From: Blattamonas nauphoetae
Lineage: Eukaryota; Preaxostyla; Oxymonadida
DNA: 64,000 bases
Reading direction: 5' to 3'
Assembly (NCBI GenBank): GCA_033064195.1
Contig: JARBJD010000163.1
Span: 97,595-161,594 of the forward strand
The stretch's first letter is position 1; the number at the start of each line of letters is the position of its first letter. A model generated the notes under the pieces. It saw nothing but the letters and a program-made list of their open reading frames with translations, was not told where the DNA came from and searched no databases. Below are positions 6,401 to 35,423 of the stretch, piece after piece. Both the position numbers and the translations under genes were made by a program.

Positions 6401-9400
6401 CGAATGAGGATGAAAAAGTCGTTTGTGTCTGGAAGTGGGATTGTTCTGATGAAAGGCTGCTCGTTTTCATCGCTTGTTGATGATTGTTCATCTGGATCAG
6501 GAAATGTGATTGAGATGGGAATTGGGGAAGGAGAGAAACTGGAGATCATGAAAACTGCAACCCATTCGTCATCGTTCATCTCGTGCTCGTCGAAAGGGAA
6601 TGGAGGAGCGCTGAAGATCGCAGTTGTGTCATCTGGAACTCTGACGATCTCTGACACGTCGTTCGTGTCCTGCTCAGCAACTGGAAATGGAGGAGCGATG
6701 TGGTTGGATGTGACAGAAATGAGCTCACCGACACAGCTCTCCTTTTCCTCAGCTTCGTTCGGAACTGGAACGACAGCAAACACATGCACTGGAAATGGCA
6801 TGAATGTGTTTGTTCGAGTGAATGCGACTGATGCAACGACAACTCTCAAGCCGTCTCAGTTCCCGTCTTCGCTCACCACACCAGAAAACTCTGGCTTCTT
6901 CTCGTCAGCCCAATTCAAACTTGAAGTGGTGGAGCTGCTCTCTCCGTCCTCGCCTTCCGAAATCACGCCTTATTTGTATATCATCTTCCCCTACCTCGCT
7001 GGACAGCTCGATGTGAATTCTGTCAATGGTGTCGATCACACGCGATGTGGTCATTCCAGTCTTCCCTGCAAGACTCTCCCGATCGGCCATCAGAATCTGA
7101 AAGGGACAGGAATGGCTGTCCAGCTGAAGGAGAATGATGGGATCACAACTGTGTTTGACTCGACTGTTGATTGGATGCTAAAATCTGACGCGACGAGAAG
7201 AACATTGACCGTTTCCAACGCTGCCTCATTCAACGTGAAACAGAACTCACTCACACTCTCCTCTCTGACAGTTCAAGGATCTTCACTGGCCTCGTCTCTG
7301 TTCGTTCTCACTGGCGGATCGCTTGTCCTCACAACATGCTCTCTCACATCGCTCACCACCACCTCAACATCCAGTCCCATCACAGGAACGATCTCATCTG
7401 GACACAAACTCGTCATCAGCACCGACACATCGTTCACCTCGTGTTCGTCAGAGAACGGTGGAGTAGTGAATGTGAAGATTGTTGGAACAGGAATGGCAAC
7501 GCTGAGTGGGTCGTTCGATGGTTGTCATGCGACTTCGAAAGGAGGAGCTGTGTTCGTCGATATGACACAAATCTCAACAGGAACAGTCTCGTTCGTTGGG
7601 GCGAAGTTTGGGTCAACAACTGCCAACACTGCACCTGTCGGCACAAATCTGTATCTCGTCAGCGCTGCTCTGAAAACAGACGCGAACACAGCTGGAATCA
7701 GCGCCTTGAAGCCGCTCCTCCCAACAGATCGTCTTTTCACAGAAAATGAGAAAAATCAGTTTGTTGGATTCGAAACGGATTCATTGAAAGGGTCTCTGCT
7801 TCTGTTCTGGTTTTCGCATTCGTCTGGGCCTGTTCATATCAATTTGTTGGGCCAGGATCATCTTCATTGTGGAGATCTCGCACTGGCTTGTCGAACTTTG
7901 GAGGAATCGTTCGTCAGAATCAAAACAACAAGAGAGCTCAGCTTGGACAGTTCAATTGACATGGGAGTGGGTCTTTCGCCACTTTCTTCGTCTTTGACGA
8001 TCAAATCAACATCAACCACAACTAACACACTCGCTCTGACCAGCTCAAATTCATTCAAAGTCACATCAGGAACGTTGACATTCACAAACATCATTTTGAC
8101 ACTGGCAGCAGGCACAACAGATGGAGTGTTTGAGGTGGACGGAGGATCAATTGTGATGGAGAGCTCTCTGCAACTCACCCGACTCGGAACGGACATCCTG
8201 ACTTCATCACTTTTCACCACGAAAAGTGGGTTGATGAGACTGGATGGGTCAGCACTGAATCTCGGCGCCCAAGTGATGTTGTCGTCTCAACCACTTTTTG
8301 CTCAGAATGGAGGCAGATTGGAGATTGTGGGACTGACGCTGACAAATGTTGTTCGGACGATTGGAGATGGAAGTGTCATCTCATCAACACTGTCGTCAGG
8401 ATCGCTCTCGATTGCGAGTTGCTCGTTCTCGTCGTGTGTCTGTTCGAGTGGAAATGGAGGAGTGATGAAAGTTGTTTTGACTGGGACAGGAACGTTCACA
8501 GTGACTGGAACAACGACATTCTCGTCGTGCAGTGCGAGTGGGGATGGAAAGTTGATTCATCTGTCGTGTTCTGATTTGGTGTCGTTTCTAGGAGGAAGCA
8601 GTGCAACTGGTCCTCTTGATGCAATCCGACCGAACACGACATCGGGAGTGGCGTTCACGAGTGATGTTCACGAGGAGTTCTGGGGAATGGACACGAACGC
8701 AGTTTCTCCGTCTTCTGGGTCTCTTCTGTTCTACTGGTATCCTCACACGACTGGATCAGTTCGTGTTGCTTCCTCTGGAACTGACCATCCGAATTGTGGT
8801 CTCGTCGAACTGCCCTGCTCGTCACTAAGCCATTCGATGAATGTGATGAAAACCACAAAATCAGTCGTGATGCAGTCTGACCTGCTACTGGCGACTTCAC
8901 TAACCTCGATCGACACGACATGGTCTCTCTCTCGATCAGGTGCAGAGAAACTCACGCTGAGTGGAAATGGTGGGATCCTCGTTGACCAACCGACAACACA
9001 TCTCACACTCTCGTCGCTGGAGATGAAATGTGGAACGATGACAGTTGATCGAACATCTGCACTGATTTGTGTGACGAATGGAAAAGTGTCGATGGCAGAC
9101 TGTTCAGTTGGAGATGCGAGTGGAGAGATTCCGATTCCATTCTGCACAATCTCAACAGGAACAGTGGAGTTGACAGGAACCAACACGATTCTCAACCCAT
9201 CTGTCTCCTCTCCTCTCTTCACTGTTGCTTCAGGATCACTTTTGATTGATGGCAACTCAACATCGTTCACAACCATCACTTCCTCATCGACTGTCCGAAG
9301 CACATCTCTCTTCGCTCTGAACGGATGCAGCTCAACAGTGAACTTCGCCTCACTTCCGATCTTGGGGATTGGGACCGGACATGACTTGTTCGCAGTGAGT

Positions 9401-12400
9401 GGAACGGCCACTCTGAACCTGAACAAGATCACACTAGATGGAGGAGACGCGTCAGTGGAGTCGTTGTTGGGTCAGAATGGAGGAACAGTGACGTTTGAAG
9501 CGTGCTCGATGTCTCGAATGAGGATGAAAAAGTCGTTTGTGTCTGGAAGTGGGACTGTTCTGATGAAAGGCTGCTCGTTTTCATCGCTTGTTGATGATTG
9601 TTCATCTGGATCAGGAAATGTGATTGAGATGGGAATTGGGGAAGGAGAGAAACTGGAGATCATGAAAACTGCAACCCATTCGTCATCGTTCATCTCGTGC
9701 TCGTCGAAAGGGAATGGAGGAGCGCTGAAGATCGCAGTTGTGTCATCTGGAACTCTGACGATCTCTGACACGTTGTTCGTGTCCTGCTCAGCAACTGGAA
9801 ATGGAGGAGGAATCTGGCTCGACCTTTCTCTGTCCACTGCACCCACTCCATTCGCTTTCTCCGGCATCACATTCGGAACCAATCCGACAAAGAACACCGC
9901 CTCCAAAGGCCGAAATATCTACGCACTCGCCAAGGCAGGTTCAACCAGTGTCCTCCTTCCACTCAGCGCCTTCGTGCCATCCACTCCAGCTCAAATTGTT
10001 TTTGACCAAACAGAACGAACCATGGTTGAGTTTGGTGAGGTGTCGATGAATCTTGAGACTGAAATTGGGTCTCTTCTGTATCTTCTCCATCCTTCTGGAA
10101 ACGATGTTCGCGTGCGAGCATCAGTTGGGTTCGACCATTCTCTTTGTGGTGCTTCAGTCCTTCCGTGCTCATCTCTCCAAACGTCGTACACCAACGCTCA
10201 TTCGAGAAATGACAATTCTGCGAGTGTTGTGTTGGACTCAGATCTCGATTTCGCAGAAACCATCACTGCCCAAAGCAAAGCGATCACAATCACCAAAGCC
10301 TCGCAAAACACGCTCACTTTCGGTTCCTCTGCTCAGCTCAACGTTGTGTCGGACACACTCACTCTGACATCACTCAAGCTGGGACTCCCATCCTCCATCA
10401 CCACCACACCCTTCGTCGTCAGTGGAGGATCTCTGATCATCGAGTCATCAGCCGATATCTCCCACTCTGGAACCGACAGCACTCCGACGACCCTCACTTG
10501 TCCTCTGATGTCAATCACAAGCGGATCTCTATCGATGAAAGGAACGACGACAACTCCTCGCGCTCTCTCGTTCTTCTCAAACTCAGCCTCGACTGATTGT
10601 TGCCTCATCAAAATCGAAAGTGCTCAGAACGAAGCACCCACCCTCACACTCTCTTCCTGCCACTTCACAGACTGCTCGATGACACACGGAGCAGTGATGA
10701 TGTTTGGGGGAGCATCGTCTGGATCAGTCGATCTGGAAGAATGCTATTTCACCCGAAACGAAGGATCTGCTTCGAACGATGTCTTTGCGACCAAACCATG
10801 GGCAGCTGCTTTCTCAAATGAGACTGTCATCAACTGCTTCTCCGACAGCGACATGAACCATCTCGTGATTGGCTCGATTCCTCTGAACGACTTCATCCCA
10901 TATTCGATCCTTGGAGTGAATGGTGCGATCGTTGATGATGCACAATGTGATCTTCCAGGCTTTTCGTGTTCGTCTGTTCGTCTATCTCTCGGCCACTGCG
11001 ACCAAAAAGAAAATGAGACTCACTTCGCCCTTCGTCTGATTCAAATCGAAGATGATGTCATTGAGACAGACACTTTGAATGTCGGATCTCGACGTGTAGT
11101 GATTTTTGGATCCTCTGAGACGGTCTCTCTCACATGGAACTCTGATGACTCACTCCTGACACTCTCAGATGGATCAGCGTCTCTGGAATCGTTCACACTC
11201 ACCGTTCAATCTCACTCGTCGCAATCTTCTCCTGTCTTGGTTCTCTCGTCGACAGGCACACTGTCTTTGACATCCATCCATTTTGAAGGAGAAAATTCAG
11301 TCTTCACACAAAGTCTGATCAACGCCAAAACTGGATCTCTTCAGATCTCATCGAGTTCATTCAGAAACATTGAAATGTCAGGACATGCTCTGATTGAGAC
11401 GAGCTGTGTTGTTGACATTGAAGAATGCTCTTTCTCAGAAATCTCTCGAGAAGGGGAGAATGCAACTATTCTATCAGCACATATCTCCCAAGCCACTCCT
11501 CCATCTATTTCTTCTTCTGTCTCGATGCGAAAGACATCCTTCGAAAACTGCATGCCGACGGAGTCTCAACGATGGGTGGAACTGATTGGGCGAAATTCCG
11601 AGACATTCTCATCTTCGGGTTGGACAGGAACATTCAACAAGACATCGATTTGGGGAGGAATTGTTGTGGACGACGTTCTAATGGAGATCGAGGATGATTT
11701 GAAGCCGTTCTCTCTGATTTATGAATTCTTCCGTCGGACAGATCCCACACTGATTGTGTCGAGTGTTTCTGGAAATGTGGACCATCCTCTTTGTGGACAC
11801 TCGCAGCTGCCCTGCCACTCGATTGATGAAGGAAGAAAACTGACATCCGTTCAAACGATGGAGATTGTTTCAATTGGGGAGATTGGAGGAGTGTTGGATG
11901 TTGGAAACGAGACAGTTCGACTAAGTGGGCACAATGGTCATGGAACAGTGAGAATAATGAACGAGGGACAAATTGTGAGCAATGATGAAGCAGATCCAGG
12001 ACAACTGATCATCTCAAAACTGGATATTGACGTTTCGTCAAGCACTCTGAAGGAGAAAAGCACAATTTTGATGGAGACTGGATCACTTGAACTGTCATCC
12101 TGCTCAATAATCTCCACACAAATCGTTTCTGTCCCGATCATCTCGTCTTCTGGAAGCAATGTCGCTCTGACAAAATTGACTCTCTCTTCAATTGTCTTCG
12201 CAGCCACTCCACTTGTCTTCACACACCTCTCGTCAGCTCAGCTTGAAGCTATTCATATGGATAACTGCACTGTCTCTGAGCTCATCTCCATTTCAAACAT
12301 CCCATCGCTATCAATCTCACAATCAGATTTCGTTGGAATATCACCCAGCACGAAAAAAGACAATTCAGACTCGTGTGAATGGTCAACGGGTCTTATATCG

Positions 12401-14029
12401 ATCTCAGACTGCAAGTCGGCTTCTGTTGTGTCATCTCGTTTCACTGCTCTATCGCAAGGAGCTCTTCTCATCTCGAACTCAAATGTGACAGTTGCCACAA
12501 GCTCATTCTCCCTCAACACGCCGACTTCTGCACCTTCAGAACAAGTTCGTCGGAATATTCGATGTGAGAATTCATCAACCGTTGAAATTGAGAGTTTAAA
12601 TGGAGGAGACGGGGTTCAGACAACATCGCATTGGATCTCAGCGGATGAAAGCTGTGCTGTGACGAAAGAGACAAAGAAATTGAGTCCAGCGCTGTTCATC
12701 CCAACACTCACAACCAAGTCATCCAACAGTGTTTTTGACAAGAAGAAAGGGTCATTCAACGTGACACTCACAGGATCAGAATTGATTCCCTGTGGACTGT
12801 TCTTGGAAATATATGAACTGAACACGGAAAACGATCCAAAGACCAAAGAAATTACTCTGACGAAAGATAAAACAACAAAATTGACACAAACAGTCATCAT
12901 TCTTTCAGTTTCGCAATCAGAACTGGGATTGAATAACACTCTGGAATGGCGCGGCCGCCTACTCTATGAAGATGGACTCCGTACCGACTCGTTCCTTGTG
13001 AAGATGAGTGCGGCAAACGAACGAAAATCACTAGCCAAACAAGTCATGCGCTGGCTCGGTCCTCTGATTGGCGGACTTGTCGCGCTCTTCTTTCTCCTCC
13101 TCATCATTGTACTTCTTGTCCGACGACATCGAAAGAAGAAAGAGACAAAACAACAAACTGCAACCGAGTTGAACACCGTCGACGAAATGATTTTGAAGGA
13201 CGATGGCTTCAATCAAACGGATCTTCTCGACTATCACTCCACTTTCTCGCTGGATAATCCAAAAACCGCAATTCCAATTTCAGACATCACTGATTATACA
13301 CATCTCCCTCCTGAAAACAACAATAAAGATTCTGCCAAGGTTCAGAAAGATGAGATTGTTGCTGCTGTGTCATTTGGGGATTGTGTGACGACGACACCGA
13401 TGAACAAACAGCAGTCACTTTACTCCCGTCTGCACGGACAGAACAAAATCGAATTCGACAAGTTGAAAGTGAGAATGATATTGGCAAGAGGAGTCGAACG
13501 ACTGGCCTCTCTGAACCCACAAGCCGCAGAACTCGCCAATCTCTCCCCACACACCATCTTCATCGACACAGCCGGCAATCAGTTCTTCCAAGCAACAACA
13601 ACAACAAACGACCTCGGGGCTTTTTTCGGAAGCTGTCCCACTTCACTGGTAGAACAGTCGAAAGTGGGACACGAAAATCAGCGTTGGCAGGCACCCGAAG
13701 TTCGGCCGACAAACCAACAACTGGACAGGGAGAAGGCAGCGGTGTTCAGTCTGGGACTCTTGCTTTGGGAGATTGAGACAGAAGAGATTCCGATGAAAGA
13801 ACTTGATGCTGCGAATGCTCAACGAGTGTTGGGTGCTGGAATGCAGCTTGACATGGAGCACATCCACCCTGACGAGTATTCAGACCTGATCATCCGCTGC
13901 ATTCATCGAACTCCCAGTGAGCGGCCGACGGCAGCCGATACTGTGAAGCTTCTGGAAGAGATTGAGAAGAATAAGAACAAGCAAGAAGTCCCGGTCCCTC
14001 CCAATCCAGTCAACCTTCATAATTTGTGA
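3461..14029 (+). CDS. Giant beta-helix (PMP-like) surface protein with one TM helix and a C-terminal kinase-like domain
   Basis: A single exon of 3522 residues. It opens with a signal-peptide-like segment (MLVIPLLISCLI). About 3150 residues follow of Ser/Thr-rich parallel beta-helix sequence with GGA/GGV turns (NGGALKIAV, KGGAVFVDM), as in polymorphic membrane proteins and pectin-lyase-like solenoids. A Cys motif close to DHxxCGxxxLPCxSL recurs about eight times, near residues 565, 815, 1190, 1466, 1775, 2225, 2494 and 2774. A TM helix (LIGGLVALFFLLLIIVLLV) near residue 3205 is followed by RRHRKKK. The cytoplasmic tail ends in a protein-kinase C-lobe: ARGVERLASL, SPHTIFID in place of HRDLKPxN, RWQAPEV for APE, FSLGLLLWEI and ERPTAADTV. 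The DFG and the N-lobe VAIK lysine are not seen, so it is probably a pseudokinase. It is likely a surface receptor or adhesin. Related families are expanded in oxymonads and trichomonads. Confidence 0.8.
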   Translation: MLVIPLLISCLISRSSLPGVLPSLTDSVFSTSNAETIDGRVVRFLPLKAYESNTLLLHSMTISIHGLYVTPSRIVEGESPRGSLIDVVNSTTTLSHLCFHPTEIRSVRVGISSFVEIIESEVWIPSTDSPLECNTGFLHVEHSSFALMNPTQTTPSLATSMSSESSVVFSSCSFSDLGVSDDGPLFCSTNVSNVTLLNLKMSNISTTHSSLANHISNRAGNVSIVGSSVTDSEDALTGGLVPGMSLATSFFVANTTISKCFTNAVDITENNPSMTQETLSASHIFINCTWTSTTTSAHGGAIRLNNIGDLTVDSCKFLHCNTTTEQYSIGGAICFVSEEDSPFAFSLNSSLFDTCYSARYSGSVYVNRSSNFFMKFTNFSKSSVGRARLTAHLMYLPAGSILSNLRFEYATAEYAESNSGAIDFDTILADITHSNILFNSNTAGKGGALLYSYTSGKPDISWFSCIFFNNVATMLLPIADDPGNTCLSGGDLYFFMDTADWNATLAKEGSFRNCFSNSDFPRIVINTRSVGTHNTIRFQTNNTFFSDLFPTPSLIVSVRDDANDEAGCGMNYFLPCKTLGYAGQNQLSTSTGEVLVEAGLFEEMMGFVVDAKSATVTSYGNENPVFDLSSVEETFVTISNGFNANLKYLSFIVAGHPVLQHTGTGKVSMESCLFVGSGNEETVTPGLISISTGALTVINTNFSSLKVGSGGLLKWDAAESVTLTNLFFLNLETTHSAPFTITPTATLSLSGLYFERCVGASFSDFGVDSSEFSQISTIDSWLSTSTSPRTPLKDGEQLTLWPSYQMVVDGNEGVDEAFCWLTSKKCRTLSNLVTRLGSNFKGTIAVTKGRTSEAGIVVANTQKLTVTGESRTESIFDLESSETSLIIVPSASSLSLSSLTLTLPSSQTSSPVISSTGTLTLSSVTITLSSSHSDLSADILSVTSGTASLVSCSFDGEHNSIGSFLSQNGGIVTFEACSMSRMRMKKSFVSGSGIVLMKGCSFSSLVDDCSSGSGNVIEMGIGEGEKLEIMKTATHSSSFISCSSKGNGGALKIAVVSSGTLTISDTSFVSCSATGNGGAMWLDVTEMSSPTQLSFSSASFGTGTTANTCTGNGMNVFVRVNATDATTTLKPSQFPSSLTTPENSGFFSSAQFKLEVVELLSPSSPSEITPYLYIIFPYLAGQLDVNSVNGVDHTRCGHSSLPCKTLPIGHQNLKGTGMAVQLKENDGITTVFDSTVDWMLKSDATRRTLTVSNAASFNVKQNSLTLSSLTVQGSSLASSLFVLTGGSLVLTTCSLTSLTTTSTSSPITGTISSGHKLVISTDTSFTSCSSENGGVVNVKIVGTGMATLSGSFDGCHATSKGGAVFVDMTQISTGTVSFVGAKFGSTTANTAPVGTNLYLVSAALKTDANTAGISALKPLLPTDRLFTENEKNQFVGFETDSLKGSLLLFWFSHSSGPVHINLLGQDHLHCGDLALACRTLEESFVRIKTTRELSLDSSIDMGVGLSPLSSSLTIKSTSTTTNTLALTSSNSFKVTSGTLTFTNIILTLAAGTTDGVFEVDGGSIVMESSLQLTRLGTDILTSSLFTTKSGLMRLDGSALNLGAQVMLSSQPLFAQNGGRLEIVGLTLTNVVRTIGDGSVISSTLSSGSLSIASCSFSSCVCSSGNGGVMKVVLTGTGTFTVTGTTTFSSCSASGDGKLIHLSCSDLVSFLGGSSATGPLDAIRPNTTSGVAFTSDVHEEFWGMDTNAVSPSSGSLLFYWYPHTTGSVRVASSGTDHPNCGLVELPCSSLSHSMNVMKTTKSVVMQSDLLLATSLTSIDTTWSLSRSGAEKLTLSGNGGILVDQPTTHLTLSSLEMKCGTMTVDRTSALICVTNGKVSMADCSVGDASGEIPIPFCTISTGTVELTGTNTILNPSVSSPLFTVASGSLLIDGNSTSFTTITSSSTVRSTSLFALNGCSSTVNFASLPILGIGTGHDLFAVSGTATLNLNKITLDGGDASVESLLGQNGGTVTFEACSMSRMRMKKSFVSGSGTVLMKGCSFSSLVDDCSSGSGNVIEMGIGEGEKLEIMKTATHSSSFISCSSKGNGGALKIAVVSSGTLTISDTLFVSCSATGNGGGIWLDLSLSTAPTPFAFSGITFGTNPTKNTASKGRNIYALAKAGSTSVLLPLSAFVPSTPAQIVFDQTERTMVEFGEVSMNLETEIGSLLYLLHPSGNDVRVRASVGFDHSLCGASVLPCSSLQTSYTNAHSRNDNSASVVLDSDLDFAETITAQSKAITITKASQNTLTFGSSAQLNVVSDTLTLTSLKLGLPSSITTTPFVVSGGSLIIESSADISHSGTDSTPTTLTCPLMSITSGSLSMKGTTTTPRALSFFSNSASTDCCLIKIESAQNEAPTLTLSSCHFTDCSMTHGAVMMFGGASSGSVDLEECYFTRNEGSASNDVFATKPWAAAFSNETVINCFSDSDMNHLVIGSIPLNDFIPYSILGVNGAIVDDAQCDLPGFSCSSVRLSLGHCDQKENETHFALRLIQIEDDVIETDTLNVGSRRVVIFGSSETVSLTWNSDDSLLTLSDGSASLESFTLTVQSHSSQSSPVLVLSSTGTLSLTSIHFEGENSVFTQSLINAKTGSLQISSSSFRNIEMSGHALIETSCVVDIEECSFSEISREGENATILSAHISQATPPSISSSVSMRKTSFENCMPTESQRWVELIGRNSETFSSSGWTGTFNKTSIWGGIVVDDVLMEIEDDLKPFSLIYEFFRRTDPTLIVSSVSGNVDHPLCGHSQLPCHSIDEGRKLTSVQTMEIVSIGEIGGVLDVGNETVRLSGHNGHGTVRIMNEGQIVSNDEADPGQLIISKLDIDVSSSTLKEKSTILMETGSLELSSCSIISTQIVSVPIISSSGSNVALTKLTLSSIVFAATPLVFTHLSSAQLEAIHMDNCTVSELISISNIPSLSISQSDFVGISPSTKKDNSDSCEWSTGLISISDCKSASVVSSRFTALSQGALLISNSNVTVATSSFSLNTPTSAPSEQVRRNIRCENSSTVEIESLNGGDGVQTTSHWISADESCAVTKETKKLSPALFIPTLTTKSSNSVFDKKKGSFNVTLTGSELIPCGLFLEIYELNTENDPKTKEITLTKDKTTKLTQTVIILSVSQSELGLNNTLEWRGRLLYEDGLRTDSFLVKMSAANERKSLAKQVMRWLGPLIGGLVALFFLLLIIVLLVRRHRKKKETKQQTATELNTVDEMILKDDGFNQTDLLDYHSTFSLDNPKTAIPISDITDYTHLPPENNNKDSAKVQKDEIVAAVSFGDCVTTTPMNKQQSLYSRLHGQNKIEFDKLKVRMILARGVERLASLNPQAAELANLSPHTIFIDTAGNQFFQATTTTNDLGAFFGSCPTSLVEQSKVGHENQRWQAPEVRPTNQQLDREKAAVFSLGLLLWEIETEEIPMKELDAANAQRVLGAGMQLDMEHIHPDEYSDLIIRCIHRTPSERPTAADTVKLLEEIEKNKNKQEVPVPPNPVNLHNL
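6359..6695 (+). repeat. Intragenic duplicated segment, copy 1
   Basis: This 337-bp stretch inside the beta-helix gene is nearly identical to 9473-9809, at an offset of 3114 bp. I could find only a few substitutions, including two that change codons (Ile/Thr and Ser/Leu). The flanking repeat units are far more diverged, which points to recent duplication or gene conversion. Confidence 0.9.
9473..9809 (+). repeat. Intragenic duplicated segment, copy 2
   Basis: Second copy of the 337-bp segment at 6359-6695, in the same frame. Both boundaries fall at an NGG(A/G) turn of the beta-helix, so exactly a whole number of helix turns was exchanged. Confidence 0.9.
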
Positions 14030-25294: not shown

Positions 25295-25907
25295 TCATGA
25301 TGGTTGGATCACACCTCTCCATCCGAATTTGGGAAGAAAATTGATGAAAAACCAAGGAACACTCTTGATCGCATTCTGTCTCAAAAATTTGTTGTATTTT
25401 ATCGACATTCCGTGGTTGAAATTCGTAGAAGTGATGTTTCTTGAATTCCTTCAGAATTCTGGTTATCATCGACCTCATGGGAGAAAATATAAAAAATCAC
25501 TCTCGATCTTCATGTATGTCAGATTTCTGGATTTGAATATGACTATATTCTCCGGTACATCAATTGATAATGTTCTGTCGATGAATGCTGAGTATTCAAT
25601 GGTTGAATCGTGATTAATCATTTTGAAATCGTTTATCACTAGAAATGAACATGGTTTGATAGTGAGTTCCAGAAAATTTGCATTTGTACCTCTTAAGGAG
25701 GAACCATCTGTCTTCTCTGAGAAAAGATGAATGAGTCCAGACAATGAAGGACTTCCCTTTCATGATAAGCTATTCAGGACCACGTTGATCATCATGATAT
25801 CTATCAGGTCTATGAAGTATGGCACATGTGACACTAAACTCAATGAGAATGTCAACTATTAGGGGTCTGGATCAACTTCAACCAAAATCAACTTGATTCC
25901 TGGTCTG
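25295..25907. other. Divergent promoter region between lipin and the CHD remodeller
   Basis: About 610 bp between head-to-head genes, so it should contain both promoters. Short open frames exist on both strands but none has recognisable content or exon partners. No clear regulatory motif was identified. Confidence 0.5.
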
Positions 25908-28900
25908 ATGCCCAAACCAAGAAAGAGACAGACCCACAATGCCTCAGACGATGAAGACTTCTACGACGAGGAGTTTGACAGTTTTGAAAAATCAATACGA
26001 GGTACTCGAGTCCAGAATGATCCTCAAAAACATAAAAAAACCATCGAGAAAGATGATGACACTGGACAGTCTAATGATGATTCTTCACCTTTCTCGGATT
26101 CTTCTCACTCTCATGAAGAAGAACCGAAAGACGATGGTATCAAATGGGAGAAGATCTTCGCAACTCGATTCAAGACGGATCATGGTCCGAACTCGCCAAC
26201 ACCTGACCCAAACGTTTCACTTTCGCAGGTGAACACTGAAACTTCAACTCAGACCACTCCATTTCAGAACACTCTCACACCCTACCTCCCAATCTCTCAC
26301 CTATCACCGTCTCCGACGCCTGGTCCCCAAGGTCAATCGCCAGGCCTTTCTTCAGATGGTGCTGTTCTTATGCGAACTTTCCCTCTTTTACCGTTTCCTA
26401 CCGAGGAGCAACTCGAGGCTGACCCTTCATTGCTCGAATTCCTCGTCAAATGGAAAAATGCTTCATATATCCACTGTAGTTGGATCCCATTCGAAGACCT
26501 TTCCCAAGACTTGCATTGGAAGATGAAATACAAAACGTTTTTAAAGAAAATGAGAGAGAAAATCGAAGAAAATTTCTCTAGATCCAGTTCCGGGGATGTT
26601 GATGCATTCGAAGAAGAATTTGAACCGTTTTCTCCAGAATATACAGAAGTTGATCGAATTCTTGGTGAGTCTGATGCTCCAGATCCATACTACGTTCCTC
26701 CTGATATTGACCCCGATGGCAACACCCAATCTGAAGAAGGAATGCAAGTCGACGTGCCAACGCGCAAACAATATCTAGTTAAATGGAAAGGACTGCAATA
26801 TTGTGACAGCACATGGGAATGGGAGGAACACTTTGTTGCTCCTGATAAAATTGCTGATTACCACCGAAGAATGGCTCAACCACCAATCCGCGATAACATC
26901 GAGCCAGAATACCCTGATCCCGATGATGCAAAAAGCCAAGTCCGTCAGAGATGGAAAAAAAGCCCAAAATACAAGAACGGGCACGAATTGCGCTCCTATC
27001 AAGTCGAAGGATTGAATTGGATGATCTTCAACTGGTACCAAGGACGAAATGCTATTTTGGCTGATGAAATGGGACTCGGCAAGGCACAGCCACTCACTGC
27101 AAACATTCTAACACCGAGCGGATGGAGGAAGATGGGAGACATCAAAGAAGGTGACGAAGTGATCGCGGCCTCAAACGGAAAAGCGACGAAAGTGGAGAAG
27201 GTGTATCCACAAGGGATTAAAGACATTTTTCAGGTTACTTTTTCAGATGGAACAAGCACTGAATGTACCGCAGAGCATCTGTGGACAATTGGACAACTTG
27301 GGAAAGAGGGGAGCATGATGACGGTTGAACTTCAAAGTATCAAAGACTCTCTTCTCGACGGACAAGGGAAACCGCAATTTTTTGTCCCAATCGCTGCTCC
27401 AATCGAGCAATATCAGTGCCAATCATTGTCTTCTGTTGGGTTGAGCGTTGAGGAGAGGTTTTCTGAACTTTTGAGAAGGATGGAACAAGCGGAAAGGTGC
27501 GTTGTTTCAGAAGAAATGGAGACAAAAGGAATGATTTCAATGAATGTTGAAACCAACACAGTTCAGGCAACATTAGAACTCATCAGATCTCTCGGAGGCT
27601 TTGCAGCTTCCGATGCATCGACCGCCTCTTCGACTCCTCTTCACTTCACTCTCCCGCCCCAATTCAACTTCAGCAAGTTGTCCAAATTAGCTGATTCAAT
27701 CAGTCAATATCGACCACTCACATCAACCTCTTCACATCGTATGATCACATCCGTCAAACAACTCCGCGCAGAGCCTGCCCAATGCATTCTCATTTCTGAT
27801 TCATCCCATCTTTACATCACCGACTCGTTCATTGTCACTCACAACACAGCACAATCCCTCAGCTTCATCAACCACATCGCACGTGTCGAGAAAATCCCAG
27901 GCCCATTCTTAATTGTTGCTCCTCTCTCAACCATCCCTCACTGGGAACGAGAGATCGAAGACTGGACTGATCTCAACTCAATTGTATTCCATGGCAACCC
28001 CACATCTCTCGAGCTCATCCGTGAGATTGAATGGATCAGATTAAACGAACGAAAGACAAAGCAAATTGGTGTTGGGTTTGAAGTGTTAATATCAACCTTT
28101 GAAACTGTTCAGAAGAACCTGGACTGGTTCATGGAAGTTCATTGGAGACTCATCGTTGTCGACGAAGCCCACAAACTCAAAAGCCGTGAATCTAAACTCT
28201 TCTGGCAGTTGAAGCAACTTCATGTTGATCGGAGACTCCTCCTGACAGGAACACCACTCCAAAACAACATGCAAGAACTGTTCTCCATTCTTAACTTCCT
28301 CCAGCCCAGTGAATTTCCATCTGAGGCCCACTTCCTCCAGAAATTTGGTGACATCAATGATCATCCAGAGAAAATCAACGACCTTCACAAAGTTCTCAAA
28401 CCGTACCTGTTGAGGCGGTTGAAGGATGACGTGGAAGATTCAATCCCGATCAAAGAAGAGACTATCATCGAAGTTGAGCTGACTCGTCTTCAGAAGAAGT
28501 ACTACAAAGCCATCCACGAAAAGAACTTCACTTTTCTTGCTCAAGGTTCGACAAAATCCTCAAACGTCCCGAATCTTATCAACGTGATGATGGAACTGCG
28601 AAAGTGCTGCAACCATCCTTTTCTGATCAAAGGAGCAGAAGAATCCATCATTAAACAAACACATGCCTACTCACTCAATGACCAGGCTGCTCTCCTTGTG
28701 ATGTCATCAGGAAAGTTAGTCCTGCTCGACAAGCTGCTTCCTCGTCTCCATCAGGAAGGGCATCGAGTCCTAATTTTCTCTCAGATGACCAAAGTACTCG
28801 ATCTTCTTCAGAAATATCTAAAATGGAAGAAGTATCCCTTCGAACGAATTGACGGTCGTGTGACTGGAAGCAACCGTCAAGCCGCGATCGACAGATTCTC

Positions 28901-31900
28901 CAAGGAAGGCTCAAATCGCTTTGTCTTCCTCCTCTGCACACGTGCCGGTGGTCTCGGAATCAACTTGACCGCTGCAGACACTGCGATCATCTTCGACTCT
29001 GACTGGAACCCGCAAAACGATATTCAGGCCCAGGCCAGATGTCACAGAATCGGGCAGACGAAGAACGTCACAGTCTACAGACTCATTACCCACAACACAT
29101 ACGAAGAGGAGATGTTCAACAGAGCCTCTCTCAAGCTCGGACTCGATCGAGCGGTGATGAGCGGTGTGCGCTCGTCTGCTCCTCAGATGGATCGGGATAC
29201 AATCGATAATCTTCTGAAGAAGGGAGCTTACAATACACTGCGAGACGATGACGATGGTGATGCGAAAGCAGCCGAGTTTGAAGCAGCAACAATCGATCAA
29301 ATCCTCGATCGCTCGAAGGTGTTGAAATATCAACACGCTGGCGAAGAAAAGAACGTGTTCAGCAAAGCATCATTCATGATGAAAGATGGAACAGATGTGA
29401 CGAATGAAGGCCAGAAAGATGAGTTTGACGATCCAAACTTTTGGGGCAAACTGCTTCCTGCAGCAAGTGCTCGAGCGATGATGGAAGAGGAAGCCTTTCT
29501 CCCAAGACTTAGAGAGCGAACATCAAAGGTATCGGTTCAGTCCAAGAGGAGGACGTTTCGAAAGAGAATGTATCGACATCGACGGAAGAAGGTAAAGGAA
29601 GCCACCGAACAAAAAGAAGAAGGACAAACAGCGATGGAAAAAGATGAAACGACTCCAACTCGACTCATCAAACCAGAACCCCAATTCCCATCCTCACTCA
29701 CTCTCGATGTGCAAGGAAACGGAACTGACCTTAATGTCGTTCTGCCTGATTCTCTCAAAGATGACGTGGGGATGATGATGGAACAGGCCGGTCTTGAATG
29801 GGGGAACTATATCGAGGACTCCCGTCCCGAATGTTCCAACTCAGAATGTTCCTGTCATCAGCGAGAATACTCCGAGGTTGAAACCGAATCTGTCGTGCGC
29901 GTCAAGGAAGATCAAATCATCGAAGACGACGATGGGGATGAGTCAAACCACAACGATGACCAGAGAGATGATGATGGAAACTACAGAGAGTCCAGCACTG
30001 TATTCAGAAGACTGGCCAAGGGTGATGGCCAGCAGAGTTCATGGCGGTTGGGAGATATTTCCAAATTGACCAGAGCGTTGCTGAGGTATGGTGAGCGATA
30101 CGATGTCATCCGCGCCAAGACGTTCCCACAACGAACCCTCCAAGATACCGTCAGGTTTGGAAACGGACTCGTTTGGTTGTATGAAACTGTTGGGAAAGTT
30201 ATCGAGCAACAGAAGGAAAGAAAGGATCATCTCAAACGTCTCCAAGAAAAGCTGAAAAACCTCAAACAAAGAGCCAATGAGTTCGATGAATTCCAAGTTG
30301 CAACAACCTCCTCCCAACTCTCAAATTCCTCGTCAACCAAACAACAAAACACTGTCATCAACCAACTCGAAGAAGAGATCAACAACTACCCTCCAGAACC
30401 AGAAATGCCAAGTTGGGAAAAGCTGCAGAAGACAGCCCCGATGACAATTGACCCTGCCATCATCCGCCAAGGGTATAACTCGATCAAATCTCGAGCCACC
30501 AATTTCATTCGAGAATGGGACCGTCAGACAGCACTCCGACGATTGATCACAGGCGATTGGAAAGGAGAACGTGAACAGGCTCGTGTTCTTGATCGACAAA
30601 AGAAAGACTTCAAAGTCTCGGCTGCTGATGAAAATCGAGTCTACGACCCGACCGAACCTGGCGGACCTCCCGGTCCGAAGGTCGTTGACACACTGACGTA
30701 CTCATATCGAGCCTCGGCGGAGTATCCTCTCCTTCTTGTTGAGTCCGCCAAAATGAAGGGATCATCACTCCCCATTTGGTGGTCACCACAATTCGATCGA
30801 GGTTTGCTGGTTGGTGTCTGGCGGTATGGAGCAGACAGTTTTCATGAAATCAGAAATGATCCGTCTCTGCCGTTCTTGCAGGTCGTTGGACCTGCGGATG
30901 TGGAAGAGGTCAAACGAGCAGAAGAAAAAGGGAACGAGGAAGAAGATGATGAAAAGGAGGAAGATAAAAAAGAGGATGATAATGATGATGAGAAAGGCGA
31001 AGATAAAGATGATGAAAAGGCGGAGGAGAAAGACGAAGATCATGAGGATGAGAAGGATGAGCTCAAAGGCGAAGGGAAAGAAGTATCGACGAAGAAAGGC
31101 CCAAAACAGAAGAAAGCTGACAAAAAAGTGGATCCAAATGGATTTCCGTCTGCAACAGTTCTGAAAACAAGAACACGAACTCTCATTCAAGCCTTCATCA
31201 GGATCGAACAGAAGATTCACAAAGAATCCACAACAGTCGAAGAAGAAAACGAAAAAATGACGAAAAGACGAAATCGGGAAACGGCTCAAAATACAGCAAC
31301 TCCTCCAAATCCGAAGGGATTCCCACAATTTCCGAATCGATCGCCTACGTACACATCTCATGTCCCTGGAGCCATTCAAATTCCAATCATCCTCGACAAC
31401 AGCGGCAAAATTGGCACGTATCATCTCGACATCCGACTCGACAAATCATCGGATCCTGACCAGACGATGGACCTCCTGATGGTTGTGTCGAAGTTGGAAT
31501 CGTTCGAACGAGCAGAGGAGTTGAATGTTCCATCAGATATCTACGATGCATCCTCCTTTTCCAGTCTCACGTGCCAGATTCCGAACATCGAAGTGTTTGA
31601 ATTGGATATGACAATCTTGTTCCGTTTCAGCACGAAGGAGAAGACCAAATTTGTGAATGCCATCATCAACTACTTCCCCCCTCCTGGAGTTGATGTCGAA
31701 TCCGAAATCCGAGCCGAAGAAGAACATCGACGCCTTCTGGCTCAGGAAAACTTAAACAAAATCGATGGTGAGCCCGACGCACCCATCATGCTGAAGGACG
31801 AAGAACCTGAAATGGACACACCGGAAGTGTCCACTGAGACGAAAGATCTACTCGGAATCGACATGTCAGACTTCGTTGTCGATCCTGAGCTGTTGAAGGA

Positions 31901-34900
31901 AAGAAAAAAAGCCAGACTGCTCGAATTGATCGCGTATTGGGATAGCTTCAAACTGTTGTTCGGCTTTGAGCAGAAGCCGAATGTCTATCTGTGTCTGTTT
32001 TATCTTCGCCTGCATCGTGAAATGGAACGGATGTCGATGAACGCGAAAGCAGACAAGAAATTCAAGACTTGGTATCAGACTTCTCGAATCGGCGAAAAGA
32101 AACAACAAGAAAATCGGGACAACATGGAAAGGATCCGAAAAGCCGAGGAGGATCGGAAAGCCAAAATTCTAAAACAGCGGAATCGACCCAATTCACTTCG
32201 GAACTTACGTCAAAGTGCATTGTACGACCAACCAACAAGCTTCGGAGAGAAAGAAGAGGATTCCATTGGCACGACACCCCAACCGAACACACCAATCCAC
32301 CCAAAGACTCCCCCACTGCCGTCAACTCCACTCAACCCACAGCTTTCACAGCAGGTCCGATCAGTTCAATCTTCTCCACAACAAATTGTTCAGCCTCAAC
32401 CACTTCCCCAGCAACCAGTCGTGCCATCACAACCGCGCCCACAACAAACTGGTCAGTCTCAGCCACAATTTGCTCAACAGGTTTCTCCATATCCACCGTT
32501 TCCTCAACAAGCTATCGGCCAGTCCCAAATACATCCTTCGCAAGCAATCGCTTCACCTCAGCATCCTCTCCCTCACCAGATCTCTCCATATCAGACGCAT
32601 CCACCACAGCAGAAGATTCCATCACACCCACTTCCTCTCCCTCAGGCAAACGATGTGAGACAACCTCTCGTCCTCAGCCAATCAAAACCTTTTCAACCAC
32701 TCGCACTCCACTCTCTCCCAACGTATTCAGGAGCCATGCAGCAACATGCGTTCATTCCGTTCGTGCCTGTTCGACTCGCAAGCTCGGGACAACACAACGC
32801 CCAACTTCATCCTCCAATCCATCACCTCTCCACCCTGCCTGTCATGGCTCAATACAACATTCCAACTGTTCAGTCGGGGAGGGCGAATCCACTCCCTTCT
32901 TTCTACCCTAATCCACCTCAGACATCTCTTGGTGTCCCACAACAACATCTTCATATTCCAAACAATCCCCCAACAATTTCATCCTCCGTTACCCAGACCC
33001 CTCCGTCCAACCGTTCAACATTCCAAATCAATTTTTTGCCAGAACAACGCACCTCTCGAAGCCGGTCGATGTATGGCAGACGACATGAGACAAACGCAAC
33101 CCCACCAATTCCAGCTAGGCCAAAGAAGATCGTCCCAGTCATTCCTCGACAGAAGTTGTGGGATTTTATCAATTTAGCGAAAGCGGAACTGTTTTTAAGC
33201 AATCGTGTTGCTTTGAAGGAAATTCAATACTACGTGATTCCACACATCTATCCACCAAACCAAATCCCATCATCCCACCCCATCTTCAAAAAACCATACT
33301 TCACACCTCCACCAGGCGAAGTGAATTCTTCCAAAGAAATGAAGGAAAAAGAAAACGTTGTTGATGACGCCCTGTTCGGTTCACTATCTCCATTCTTCCG
33401 CAAGCTCGGTCTCTCGTCATTCCCTGTCATAATGAACCGTCTACCGAACTGTTCTTGGTACGCTGGTTCCATTCTGGATGAAGATCTCTTTCGGGGGATT
33501 CAGAAATATGCTTTCTTCTGGTCACATATCCTTGTAGATAAAGACTTGAACTTCCAATACTTCATCCCTCTCGAGATCCTTCAAACTCTTCGTGACATCG
33601 CTCTCAAAGAGGGGATGAACCCACGGCAAATTTGTGCAATCAGAGACTTCAAAACCATCCTCAAAGAAACGACTGATGATGGCATCCCTCCTCCACCATA
33701 CAACGTCGAAGAGAGCAACAAACTCCACCCGTACAGAACCAACATCAAACAGAAGAAAAGAAAAAGATATCCAAAAAAGAAGACAGAAGAAGACACAGCG
33801 AAGGAGAATGATGAGACGACACATGAACAGACGGAGGGTCGTAAAGAGCCAGAGCCCAAACCGTTTGAAGAGAGGGAAGATGAAGTTGCCAAAGGAAAGT
33901 CACCCTCTCAACGAAAAAGGATCAAAAATGTGACTATTTATGATGACGTCCCTGCTGTTCCAAACAGGCAGTTCATTCTACAAAGAGCGCAGCAATTCAT
34001 CCAACTCTTCAAATGCCAACAAGTTCTCGACAATCTCGCTGAAGATCAAAACCTCGTCACTGAAATCGAGCGTACTGTTCTCAATGAACCGCAAACAGAG
34101 AAACTTGAAGAAAGTGAGATGCTGAAAGAAGAAGAGCCATCCAAAGAAGTCTTTTTCGACAGGCATGTGTATCTGATGAATGACGCGACTGTGCACAGTG
34201 TTAATGTGGATGTCTATCGTCAAACAGGAGAACCGAAAACTACTTTCGTCGGTGGGTTCAAAAAAGATGACTTTGTGAATGGGATTGTCGACCACGATTG
34301 GATCCTTGTCCAAGAAGATGGACAGAGACTCGGAGAAATCGAAGAACTTGTTCAGATGTTGATTGACGCATATTTCCGGAAAGAGCAAGACAAAGTCAAA
34401 CCAAAAAAAGGTCCAAAACAAGCAGAATCAGTTGCAGATAACAAAACTCGTTACGTTCCGAAAACCCCCCGAACATCAAATCGACCGTCTAAACCCTCAA
34501 CACCAATAACAGTGAAAAAGACACAAACCATTCAAAAGCTGATGCAGATGGTGCACTATCCATTCAACGTCGTGTACATCCCTCCTCACTCGAGATCCTC
34601 TGCTGACTACCCAAAAGCCACGTCAGAGAACCTTGGATACCAACTCCCACTGCAGCTCGGTCCAGTGCAGGTTCTGTCGTTTGGACAAGTCATCCCGAAT
34701 GTTCCAGGATGGGTTGAGCCAGATATCATCTATCCGTTTGGTCTGAGGATCTCCCGGCCGTTCTATTCAATGGCCGACGCGGTTTTCAACACGTCAGAGC
34801 CACAGCTGAAAGAGAACTTCGTCCTTGAAATTGTATTGGCTCCATCAGACAGACATTTGTTGGAAAAAGAATCCCCTTCAGTCTTTCAGATCACAGCCCC

Positions 34901-35423
34901 ACCACGTTTTCAAGTTTACCGAGCAGCTGATCCATCGATCATGGTTGAAGGGGACACTCCTGGGAAGGCTTGGAGGCAGATGGTTGAGCTCATCGCACAA
35001 TCGTGGAAGCAAAATCAAGTTCTCGATCCAACATGTTCCCTCGACTTCAAGGAGAATCACGAAAGAATCATTCGCGCCGAAACTGTCCCATTAGTTGCAC
35101 CTCCCATTCTCTATCCAGAAACTGCCGAGCAGCTCGATATGTTTTGCCTCCGAGCCCCAACACTCCGTGCCATCCTGGAATTCCTTCCTCTTTCAGAAAC
35201 ATGCACTCCTCCATACGTCTTTATGGAATACACAGAGGAAAGGCGAGCTCACATGCGGGTACAGTGGATGAGATCACATCTGCTGGTTAAGTCTTCTGCA
35301 CTTCAACGCGGAATGTTAGGAATCACTATGCCTCGTGTCCCAGGGATGATCCCTCCAGATCGGGACGTTGCTGATCAGACTCACGTGGATGAGGATGAGA
35401 GTGACGCACATCTCTTTGATTGA
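25908..35423 (+). CDS. CHD-family chromatin remodelling ATPase (contains an intein)
   Basis: A single exon; ATG at 25908 (in-frame TTG codons upstream are not used) gives 3171 residues including the intein. CHD proteins slide or space nucleosomes with ATP energy in the nucleus. Two chromodomains are visible: residues ~173-212 (EFLVKWKNASYIHCSW) and ~284-325 (QYLVKWKGLQYCDSTWEWEE). A SNF2 ATPase follows: ELRSYQVEGLNWM, P-loop DEMGLGK (Lys392), the 254-residue intein, then TAQSLSFI, VVDEAHKLKS, LLLTGTPLQNNMQEL, and helicase-C motifs (VLIFSQMTKVLDLLQ, DGRVTGSNRQAAIDRF, TRAGGLGINLTAADT, QARCHRIGQ). A SANT/SLIDE-like segment (YDVIRAKTFPQRTLQDTVRFG), a Glu/Asp/Lys run (~1665-1725), a long Gln/Pro-rich region (~2115-2380) and further unassigned blocks come after. 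No PHD finger was seen, so it is closer to CHD1/2 or CHD6-9 than CHD3-5. The subfamily is not settled. Confidence 0.92.
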   Translation: MPKPRKRQTHNASDDEDFYDEEFDSFEKSIRGTRVQNDPQKHKKTIEKDDDTGQSNDDSSPFSDSSHSHEEEPKDDGIKWEKIFATRFKTDHGPNSPTPDPNVSLSQVNTETSTQTTPFQNTLTPYLPISHLSPSPTPGPQGQSPGLSSDGAVLMRTFPLLPFPTEEQLEADPSLLEFLVKWKNASYIHCSWIPFEDLSQDLHWKMKYKTFLKKMREKIEENFSRSSSGDVDAFEEEFEPFSPEYTEVDRILGESDAPDPYYVPPDIDPDGNTQSEEGMQVDVPTRKQYLVKWKGLQYCDSTWEWEEHFVAPDKIADYHRRMAQPPIRDNIEPEYPDPDDAKSQVRQRWKKSPKYKNGHELRSYQVEGLNWMIFNWYQGRNAILADEMGLGKAQPLTANILTPSGWRKMGDIKEGDEVIAASNGKATKVEKVYPQGIKDIFQVTFSDGTSTECTAEHLWTIGQLGKEGSMMTVELQSIKDSLLDGQGKPQFFVPIAAPIEQYQCQSLSSVGLSVEERFSELLRRMEQAERCVVSEEMETKGMISMNVETNTVQATLELIRSLGGFAASDASTASSTPLHFTLPPQFNFSKLSKLADSISQYRPLTSTSSHRMITSVKQLRAEPAQCILISDSSHLYITDSFIVTHNTAQSLSFINHIARVEKIPGPFLIVAPLSTIPHWEREIEDWTDLNSIVFHGNPTSLELIREIEWIRLNERKTKQIGVGFEVLISTFETVQKNLDWFMEVHWRLIVVDEAHKLKSRESKLFWQLKQLHVDRRLLLTGTPLQNNMQELFSILNFLQPSEFPSEAHFLQKFGDINDHPEKINDLHKVLKPYLLRRLKDDVEDSIPIKEETIIEVELTRLQKKYYKAIHEKNFTFLAQGSTKSSNVPNLINVMMELRKCCNHPFLIKGAEESIIKQTHAYSLNDQAALLVMSSGKLVLLDKLLPRLHQEGHRVLIFSQMTKVLDLLQKYLKWKKYPFERIDGRVTGSNRQAAIDRFSKEGSNRFVFLLCTRAGGLGINLTAADTAIIFDSDWNPQNDIQAQARCHRIGQTKNVTVYRLITHNTYEEEMFNRASLKLGLDRAVMSGVRSSAPQMDRDTIDNLLKKGAYNTLRDDDDGDAKAAEFEAATIDQILDRSKVLKYQHAGEEKNVFSKASFMMKDGTDVTNEGQKDEFDDPNFWGKLLPAASARAMMEEEAFLPRLRERTSKVSVQSKRRTFRKRMYRHRRKKVKEATEQKEEGQTAMEKDETTPTRLIKPEPQFPSSLTLDVQGNGTDLNVVLPDSLKDDVGMMMEQAGLEWGNYIEDSRPECSNSECSCHQREYSEVETESVVRVKEDQIIEDDDGDESNHNDDQRDDDGNYRESSTVFRRLAKGDGQQSSWRLGDISKLTRALLRYGERYDVIRAKTFPQRTLQDTVRFGNGLVWLYETVGKVIEQQKERKDHLKRLQEKLKNLKQRANEFDEFQVATTSSQLSNSSSTKQQNTVINQLEEEINNYPPEPEMPSWEKLQKTAPMTIDPAIIRQGYNSIKSRATNFIREWDRQTALRRLITGDWKGEREQARVLDRQKKDFKVSAADENRVYDPTEPGGPPGPKVVDTLTYSYRASAEYPLLLVESAKMKGSSLPIWWSPQFDRGLLVGVWRYGADSFHEIRNDPSLPFLQVVGPADVEEVKRAEEKGNEEEDDEKEEDKKEDDNDDEKGEDKDDEKAEEKDEDHEDEKDELKGEGKEVSTKKGPKQKKADKKVDPNGFPSATVLKTRTRTLIQAFIRIEQKIHKESTTVEEENEKMTKRRNRETAQNTATPPNPKGFPQFPNRSPTYTSHVPGAIQIPIILDNSGKIGTYHLDIRLDKSSDPDQTMDLLMVVSKLESFERAEELNVPSDIYDASSFSSLTCQIPNIEVFELDMTILFRFSTKEKTKFVNAIINYFPPPGVDVESEIRAEEEHRRLLAQENLNKIDGEPDAPIMLKDEEPEMDTPEVSTETKDLLGIDMSDFVVDPELLKERKKARLLELIAYWDSFKLLFGFEQKPNVYLCLFYLRLHREMERMSMNAKADKKFKTWYQTSRIGEKKQQENRDNMERIRKAEEDRKAKILKQRNRPNSLRNLRQSALYDQPTSFGEKEEDSIGTTPQPNTPIHPKTPPLPSTPLNPQLSQQVRSVQSSPQQIVQPQPLPQQPVVPSQPRPQQTGQSQPQFAQQVSPYPPFPQQAIGQSQIHPSQAIASPQHPLPHQISPYQTHPPQQKIPSHPLPLPQANDVRQPLVLSQSKPFQPLALHSLPTYSGAMQQHAFIPFVPVRLASSGQHNAQLHPPIHHLSTLPVMAQYNIPTVQSGRANPLPSFYPNPPQTSLGVPQQHLHIPNNPPTISSSVTQTPPSNRSTFQINFLPEQRTSRSRSMYGRRHETNATPPIPARPKKIVPVIPRQKLWDFINLAKAELFLSNRVALKEIQYYVIPHIYPPNQIPSSHPIFKKPYFTPPPGEVNSSKEMKEKENVVDDALFGSLSPFFRKLGLSSFPVIMNRLPNCSWYAGSILDEDLFRGIQKYAFFWSHILVDKDLNFQYFIPLEILQTLRDIALKEGMNPRQICAIRDFKTILKETTDDGIPPPPYNVEESNKLHPYRTNIKQKKRKRYPKKKTEEDTAKENDETTHEQTEGRKEPEPKPFEEREDEVAKGKSPSQRKRIKNVTIYDDVPAVPNRQFILQRAQQFIQLFKCQQVLDNLAEDQNLVTEIERTVLNEPQTEKLEESEMLKEEEPSKEVFFDRHVYLMNDATVHSVNVDVYRQTGEPKTTFVGGFKKDDFVNGIVDHDWILVQEDGQRLGEIEELVQMLIDAYFRKEQDKVKPKKGPKQAESVADNKTRYVPKTPRTSNRPSKPSTPITVKKTQTIQKLMQMVHYPFNVVYIPPHSRSSADYPKATSENLGYQLPLQLGPVQVLSFGQVIPNVPGWVEPDIIYPFGLRISRPFYSMADAVFNTSEPQLKENFVLEIVLAPSDRHLLEKESPSVFQITAPPRFQVYRAADPSIMVEGDTPGKAWRQMVELIAQSWKQNQVLDPTCSLDFKENHERIIRAETVPLVAPPILYPETAEQLDMFCLRAPTLRAILEFLPLSETCTPPYVFMEYTEERRAHMRVQWMRSHLLVKSSALQRGMLGITMPRVPGMIPPDRDVADQTHVDEDESDAHLFD
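27084..27845 (+). other. Intein (254 aa) in the CHD ATPase P-loop, Ala at position 1
   Basis: The conserved DEMGLGKT P-loop is split after Lys by 762 nt in the same frame, and the SNF2 alignment resumes at Thr. The insert has intein splicing blocks: A (AQPLTANILTPSGWRKMGD, then EGDEV), B (STECTAEHLWTI, with the TxxH motif), F (CILISDSSHLYITDSFIV) and G (IVTHN, followed by Thr as the +1 extein residue). Position 1 is Ala rather than Cys or Ser, so splicing would have to skip the first acyl-shift step, as in Ala1 inteins that attack from the +1 residue. The penultimate His and terminal Asn are present. At 254 residues it is too short for a full LAGLIDADG endonuclease. A TLELIRSLGGFA segment resembles the tail of one. 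It is not an intron: it has no GT/AG ends and the frame is open throughout. Confidence 0.9.

Follow-up and report, generated by a model that had tools for sequence, protein, structure and literature searches.

What separates the two halves of the P-loop in a nuclear CHD-type chromatin remodeller gene of the oxymonad Blattamonas nauphoetae, and how could such a gene yield an active ATPase? The gene lies in the stretch of DNA analyzed here, hereafter the window (64,000 nucleotides, positions 97,595 to 161,594 of the forward strand of contig JARBJD010000163.1, assembly GCA_033064195.1). A first-pass annotation of the window had proposed that the P-loop of a two-chromodomain SNF2 ATPase is split after Lys by a 254-codon in-frame insert followed by Thr, and that this insert is an intein. 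The reading frame (25866-35423, plus strand, with the first ATG at 25908 as the putative start) is uninterrupted, its translation agrees with this description, and the proposed junctions, 27084 and 27845, are exact to the base. The insert lies between DEMGLGK and Thr and runs from AQPLTANILTPSGW to ITDSFIVTHN.

Compared with known inteins by a phmmer search of PDB, the insert alone matches class 3 DnaB1 inteins (6rix, E 1.8e-9; 6riy, 4.9e-9; 6bs8, 1.8e-8), followed by gp41-1 inteins. The insert is more than a chance resemblance: in addition to this match, five further in-frame copies occupy the same codon in other genes of the genome (see below). With a profile built on all six copies the PDB match to class 3 inteins rises to 1.3e-14, and hhalign of the six copies against the prokaryotic class 3 set gives 100%. 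The marks of class 3, according to the available text of PMC5222942 and PMC3196547, are Trp B:12, Cys F:4 and Thr G:5, and all three are invariant across our 15-row alignment. Position 1 is Ala, and not Cys, Ser or Thr, in all six copies, His B:10 and the terminal His-Asn are kept, and the +1 residue is Thr in 6/6 copies. The predicted structure has the HINT fold. Curated intein models weigh against this assignment: on the insert, Pfam Hint_2 reaches only 12.7 bits (cut-off 28.4) and TIGR01445 only 13.9 bits (cut-off 24.5), while searches of the whole genome (the window's own assembly, 88.3 megabases in 837 contigs) with PF14890 and TIGR01445 give zero matches. We read these results as poor coverage of class 3 inteins by the models. 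Sequence, predicted fold, splice-junction residues and bacterial SNF2 helicases with related inteins at the same codon support the proposal that an intein, here assigned to class 3 and predicted to splice, interrupts the P-loop of this nuclear CHD protein. The class, the five further copies and the lack of endonuclease motifs are additions to that proposal.

The endonuclease remnant of the window intein, R..LL....LIRSLGG, lines up with RxAxLQGLMDTDG...LVxSLGG of full-length relatives. In a loose pattern scan, a LAGLIDADG-like motif is found in 0/6 eukaryotic copies and in 101 of the 135 scanned sequences, these 101 being all prokaryotic or viral. By its sequence the window intein, having neither of the two acidic LAGLIDADG motifs, is outside the category of homing inteins with a LAGLIDADG endonuclease.

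Searched with the intein, the assembly yields six complete in-frame copies, located on contigs C72 (the window's), C223, C334, C71, C67 and C13, with lengths of 254, 257, 257, 285, 309 and 303 amino acids, respectively. All of them follow DEMGLGK, start with AQP and end with THN, with Thr behind. Their hosts are three CHD1-type genes (the C223 and C334 genes being 75% identical to the C72 gene over the ATPase) and BRM-, SWR1/SRCAP- and SMARCAL1-like ATPases. The C71 host is assigned to BRM/SNF2 by 528 bits vs 375 for the best ISWI chain, and the C67 host to SRCAP/SWR1 by 396 bits vs 230 for INO80. The C13 host is probably SMARCAL1-like, a weak assignment (HARP, 24.6 bits with a cut-off of 25; best PDB matches Mot1 and SNF2, about 124 bits). 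Four intein queries and the models PF14890, TIGR01445 and PF14528, run over the whole genome, reveal no further hosts beyond these six and broken copies on C334. The latter are a 3.4-kb reverse-oriented segmental duplicate of the C334 CHD1 gene (C334:270500-280490, 93% identical), which ends inside the intein, and two lone fragments of 161 bp (98%) and 124 bp (93%), about 3 kb apart (C334:678000-687990), which hold the P-loop with the intein start, and the intein end. Weak intein matches on C216, C831, C386 and C46 (E 0.09 to 0.98) were taken as chance; the one inspected, on C216, covers 39 residues (31%). The word 'intein' does not occur in the available text of the published Blattamonas nauphoetae genome paper (PMC10703272).

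The host protein encoded in the window was described correctly as a two-chromodomain SNF2 ATPase: Pfam matches over cut-off comprise two Chromo stretches, SNF2 in two stretches, Helicase_C and FYRN, while those to FYRC and the CHD1 HTH are below it. The SNF2 profile resumes at its position 31 directly behind the insert. The best PDB matches of the C-extein are CHD1 (424.5 bits), CHD4 (395.3) and ISWI (382.6). Judged by its tandem chromodomains and CHD1-type SNF2 ATPase, the gene is a CHD1-type remodeller. At the C-terminal end of the protein (window positions 34641-35207) FYRN is accompanied by the weak FYRC, and FYRN is present in the C223 copy too; the FYRN/FYRC pair is a feature of trithorax-type proteins and is not known from CHD1. 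Coordinates are given in the table.

Features of the CHD1-like gene and its predicted intein (window coordinates)
Feature	Position	Strand	Basis
CHD1-like chromatin remodeller gene (host protein, exteins)	25908..35423	+	open frame, Pfam, PDB match; start codon putative
Top-scoring chromodomain stretch (protein residues 299-335)	26760..26870	+	Pfam PF00385
N-extein half of P-loop, DEMGLGK	27063..27083	+	read in frame
Class 3 intein (predicted to splice), 254 amino acids, Ala1 to Asn254	27084..27845	+	PDB match, alignment, predicted fold
Block B, TECTAEHLW: His B:10 (27276-27278), Trp B:12 (27282-27284)	27258..27284	+	H65, W67 invariant in 15/15 aligned sequences
Endonuclease-region remnant (R..LL....LIRSLGG), acidic LAGLIDADG motifs missing	27444..27611	+	alignment to full-length relatives, motif scan
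Cys F:4, expected nucleophile of first splicing step	27783..27785	+	C234 invariant in 15/15
Block G end: Thr G:5, His, Asn	27837..27845	+	T252, H253, N254 invariant in 15/15
+1 Thr, also P-loop Thr of mature ATPase	27846..27848	+	read in frame
SNF2 ATPase domain, C-extein part	27846..28622	+	PF00176 positions 31-289
Helicase_C domain	28713..29054	+	PF00271

Relatives of the intein are found in phages and bacteria. The tblastn search gives 593 phage records, ten of which were retrieved. At least 80 loci came from each of two scans, one of IMG/VR and the other of genomes of bacteria and archaea; both scans used a pattern at the THN end, which is therefore shared by construction. The 120 loci parsed out of 160 (64 viral, 56 bacterial; 40 partial matches or near-duplicates were dropped) include 99 with insertion at GK^T among the matches listed, and six of these 99, again among the matches listed, have the motif DxMGxGK. 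Five of eight host proteins tested match PF00176 well directly behind the intein (one matches weakly, two have no match); these five are bacterial SNF2 helicases, and in four of them the profile resumes from position 31, as in the window gene.

With phage and bacterial class 3 P-loop inteins the six eukaryotic ones share the WCT triplet, Ala1 (present in most of the former), the AQPL...LTPxGW start, the HLYVTDDFIVTHN^T end and the GK^T site, but the hosts of the former are prokaryotic or viral. Thr at B:7 (TxxH) occurs in 6/6 eukaryotic copies and in 10/129 prokaryotic rows, where Cys is the most frequent residue. The mycobacterial DnaB1 class 3 mini-inteins (6BS8, 6RIX, 6RIY) have the same fold (predicted here), catalytic residues, lack of endonuclease and P-loop site, according to our comparison and the available text of PMC6195587, but their host is the bacterial DnaB, their +1 residue is Ser, their block B has DxxH instead of TxxH, and in the eukaryotic intein blocks B and F are separated by an insert of more than 100 residues. 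The Snf2 intein of Deinococcus radiodurans is, as described, likewise class 3 in a Snf2 protein, though in a bacterial host, and splices in a model precursor (PMC3196547, available text). Known nuclear inteins (Prp8, VMA1, RNA polymerase, ThrRS, GLT, CHS, eIF5B) also reside in essential nuclear genes, and intragenomic spread has been proposed for some of them. The table of the commonest inteins in Green et al. 2018 contains mainly fungi, with a few amoebae, algae and choanoflagellates; as far as its text is available, Table 1 has no SNF2 host and neither 'class 3' nor 'Snf2' occurs.

Other SNF2 genes of the genome lack the intein. Among the loci retrieved, 11 SNF2-type P-loops have unbroken GLGK: four DEMGLGK^T, one DEMGLGK^S, two DDMGLGK^T, two DESGLGK^T (on C434, in two places) and two DESGLGK^R; C27 (DQMGLGK^T) provides a twelfth uninterrupted P-loop. 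One PDB search each for two of these genes indicates a Mot1-like and an ISWI/LSH-like protein. An intein-free CHD1, BRM or SWR1 ATPase was not found among the best candidates, introns being ignored: the best other matches to these ATPases are 43%, 45% and 42% identical, respectively, and all come from other named subfamilies, and short pieces of a C7 gene are 47-53% identical to them. In this gene, located at C7:121-123 kb and judged ISWI-like by eye, DEM and GLGKT are separated, nearly at the intein site, by an intron-like GT...CAG sequence that contains an in-frame stop. SNF2 matches at C723:176006-176332 and C112:447547-447867, in frames of 4109 and 4022 amino acids, have DESGLGKR, that is, a P-loop without Thr/Ser. 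SNF2 matches at C72:90k, on C16 and on C1 showed no P-loop in the stretches read.

Taken together, the locus is probably best explained by a class 3 intein that is predicted to splice and is one of six copies at the same P-loop codon. As to the history itself, we favor, with less assurance, one entry of a phage or bacterial class 3 intein, endonuclease-driven copying into SNF2 paralogues and later loss of the endonuclease. In a tree of the six copies and 115 phage and bacterial intein rows (out of 135 sequences, after removal of rows at least 88% identical; 122 columns; without class 1 and class 2 inteins) the copies join in a single clade (98/90), recovered in 98% of 200 bootstrap trees, although much of the remaining branching is open and bootstrapping had not yet settled; a quick tree from which the long mycobacteriophage row was left out retains the clade with a Shimodaira-Hasegawa-like approximate likelihood ratio test (SH-aLRT) value of 92. 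This suggests a single acquisition and spread among paralogues. The SNF2 subfamilies concerned are generally held to be older than the last common eukaryotic ancestor, and inheritance from an ancestral SNF2 gene is therefore unlikely. Several observations weigh on the other side, and the first two of them fit an alternative that we consider unlikely, though the strongest of those discussed, namely that the same class 3 inteins were gained at least two times separately from phages or bacteria, each in a different SNF2 gene, with the conserved DEMGLGK^T DNA as a common target. Approximately unbiased (AU) tests do not reject trees in which the C67 (SWR1-type) copy is held with prokaryotic groups (p-AU 0.11 and 0.255) or the C13 (SMARCAL1-type) copy is moved to a prokaryotic group (p-AU 0.145), and these two copies are 40-50% identical to the other eukaryotic copies, the level of unrelated relatives, vs 47-49% to the best prokaryotic match. 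Moreover, the search for an active endonuclease in the genome was negative (PF14528, zero matches), so the spread is inferred. Identity between subfamilies was tried as proof of recent spread and rejected: in all 12 between-subfamily pairs intein blocks are 44-62% identical vs 24-43% for exteins, but blocks are also 47-56% identical to the best prokaryotic row, and this high floor explains much of the difference. Separate gains are, in turn, disfavored by the free tree, which joins all six copies, by their common Thr at B:7, and by the costlier history of two to four transfers into one eukaryote at one codon. Given the AU tests and the identities, which do not separate the C67 and C13 copies, the single origin is better supported but unproven.

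Other explanations concern the nature of the insert. It may be an intein-derived domain that only cleaves or is a dead relic, leaving the remodeller inactive or in two pieces; the endonuclease region has decayed, truncated copies exist in the genome, and Arthrobacter has a pseudogene of a class 3 intein (PMC3196547, available text). However, His B:10 and Cys F:4, both lost in that pseudogene, are retained in all six copies, no intein-free CHD1, BRM or SWR1 copy that could supply the function was found among the candidates above, and the ratio of nonsynonymous to synonymous divergence (dN/dS) of the inteins is about 0.2 (CHD1 pairs: 0.22, 0.18 and 0.23), with dN of 0.20-0.30 in intein blocks vs 0.42-0.68 in the middle, so we regard this explanation as improbable. 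These ratios are rough, since dS is 1.3-2.6, near saturation, and the inteins evolve faster than the exteins (dN/dS 0.09 and 0.10 in the two computable pairs of three), both of which count against our interpretation. A long spliceosomal intron open in frame by chance would agree with the presence of introns in the host, including the C7 stretch with its stop codon, yet that very case demonstrates what an intron at the P-loop looks like, whereas the six copies are open over 254-309 codons, have ends GCACAG or GCTCAA...AAC rather than GT...AG, and show conservation at the protein level and a predicted intein fold; an intron is extremely unlikely. Hardly more credible is an assembly chimera or contaminant joining bacterial DNA to a eukaryotic gene, as the phage and bacterial origin of the relatives might suggest: the six copies lie on six contigs (162-817 kb), each within a single open frame alongside chromodomains and SNF2 domains of eukaryotic subfamilies, and the guanine-cytosine (GC) content of the inteins (0.45-0.53) is near that of the exteins.

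If the insert is a splicing class 3 intein, then, following the mechanism in the class 3 literature, Cys F:4 would attack the Lys-Ala bond at the N junction after translation, the N-extein would be transferred to Thr+1, Asn254 would cyclize, and the exteins would be joined, restoring GLGKT and an active CHD1 ATPase. The ancestral intein may have already favored P-loop GK^T sites in a phage or bacterium, its endonuclease would have copied it into paralogous SNF2 P-loops and then been lost, and the present copies may persist because the host depends on the spliced proteins. Judging by the position of the insert, the unspliced ATPase would be inactive, and splicing may act as the switch that the first-pass annotation suggested; the available text of PMC6195587 states likewise for the RadA P-loop intein. 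It counts against the whole explanation that it is built on DNA. The position, reading frame and residues of the insert, its predicted fold, the six copies and the phage and bacterial relatives at the matching domain position are observed; from them we infer that the insert stays in the mRNA, that the protein splices, that the precursor is inactive, which way the transfer went, that homing spread the intein, and any regulation.

A shared redox-sensitive checkpoint of maturation, with oxidation holding and then releasing CHD1, BRM, SWR1 and SMARCAL1-like precursors together as a global switch of chromatin acting through protein splicing, is a speculative and rather improbable extension. It would build on the requirement of the first step for free Cys F:4, on the class 3 intein in every CHD1, BRM and SWR1 ATPase found and in the SMARCAL1-like repair helicase, and on the presumably anaerobic life of the protist. 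Its chemistry has a precedent, since oxidation reversibly inhibits a mycobacterial class 3 intein located in a P-loop (PMC6195587, available text).

Elsewhere in the window, an open frame of 3522 amino acids (3461-14029) has as its sole Pfam match a protein kinase domain, of which the C-terminal part is covered. The GC content of positions 43000-64000 is about 0.35-0.41, lower than up to 43 kb (about 0.38-0.50), and three long open frames in this part have no Pfam match at E 0.001.

Our search of the open-licence literature (subscription papers were mostly outside it) found no paper on class 3 inteins in nuclear genes of eukaryotes, nor on any intein in a eukaryotic SNF2 remodeller. If the inteins splice, the main chromatin remodellers of this eukaryote would need protein splicing to become active, by a class so far described, as far as we found, from phages and bacteria. 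An intein would have passed from one domain of life to another, from bacterial SNF2 to eukaryotic SNF2 at the homologous codon, and would probably have spread among long-diverged paralogues, and SNF2 remodellers would join the short list of nuclear intein hosts. The six related inteins in different exteins would also provide a natural set to ask whether splicing regulates chromatin.
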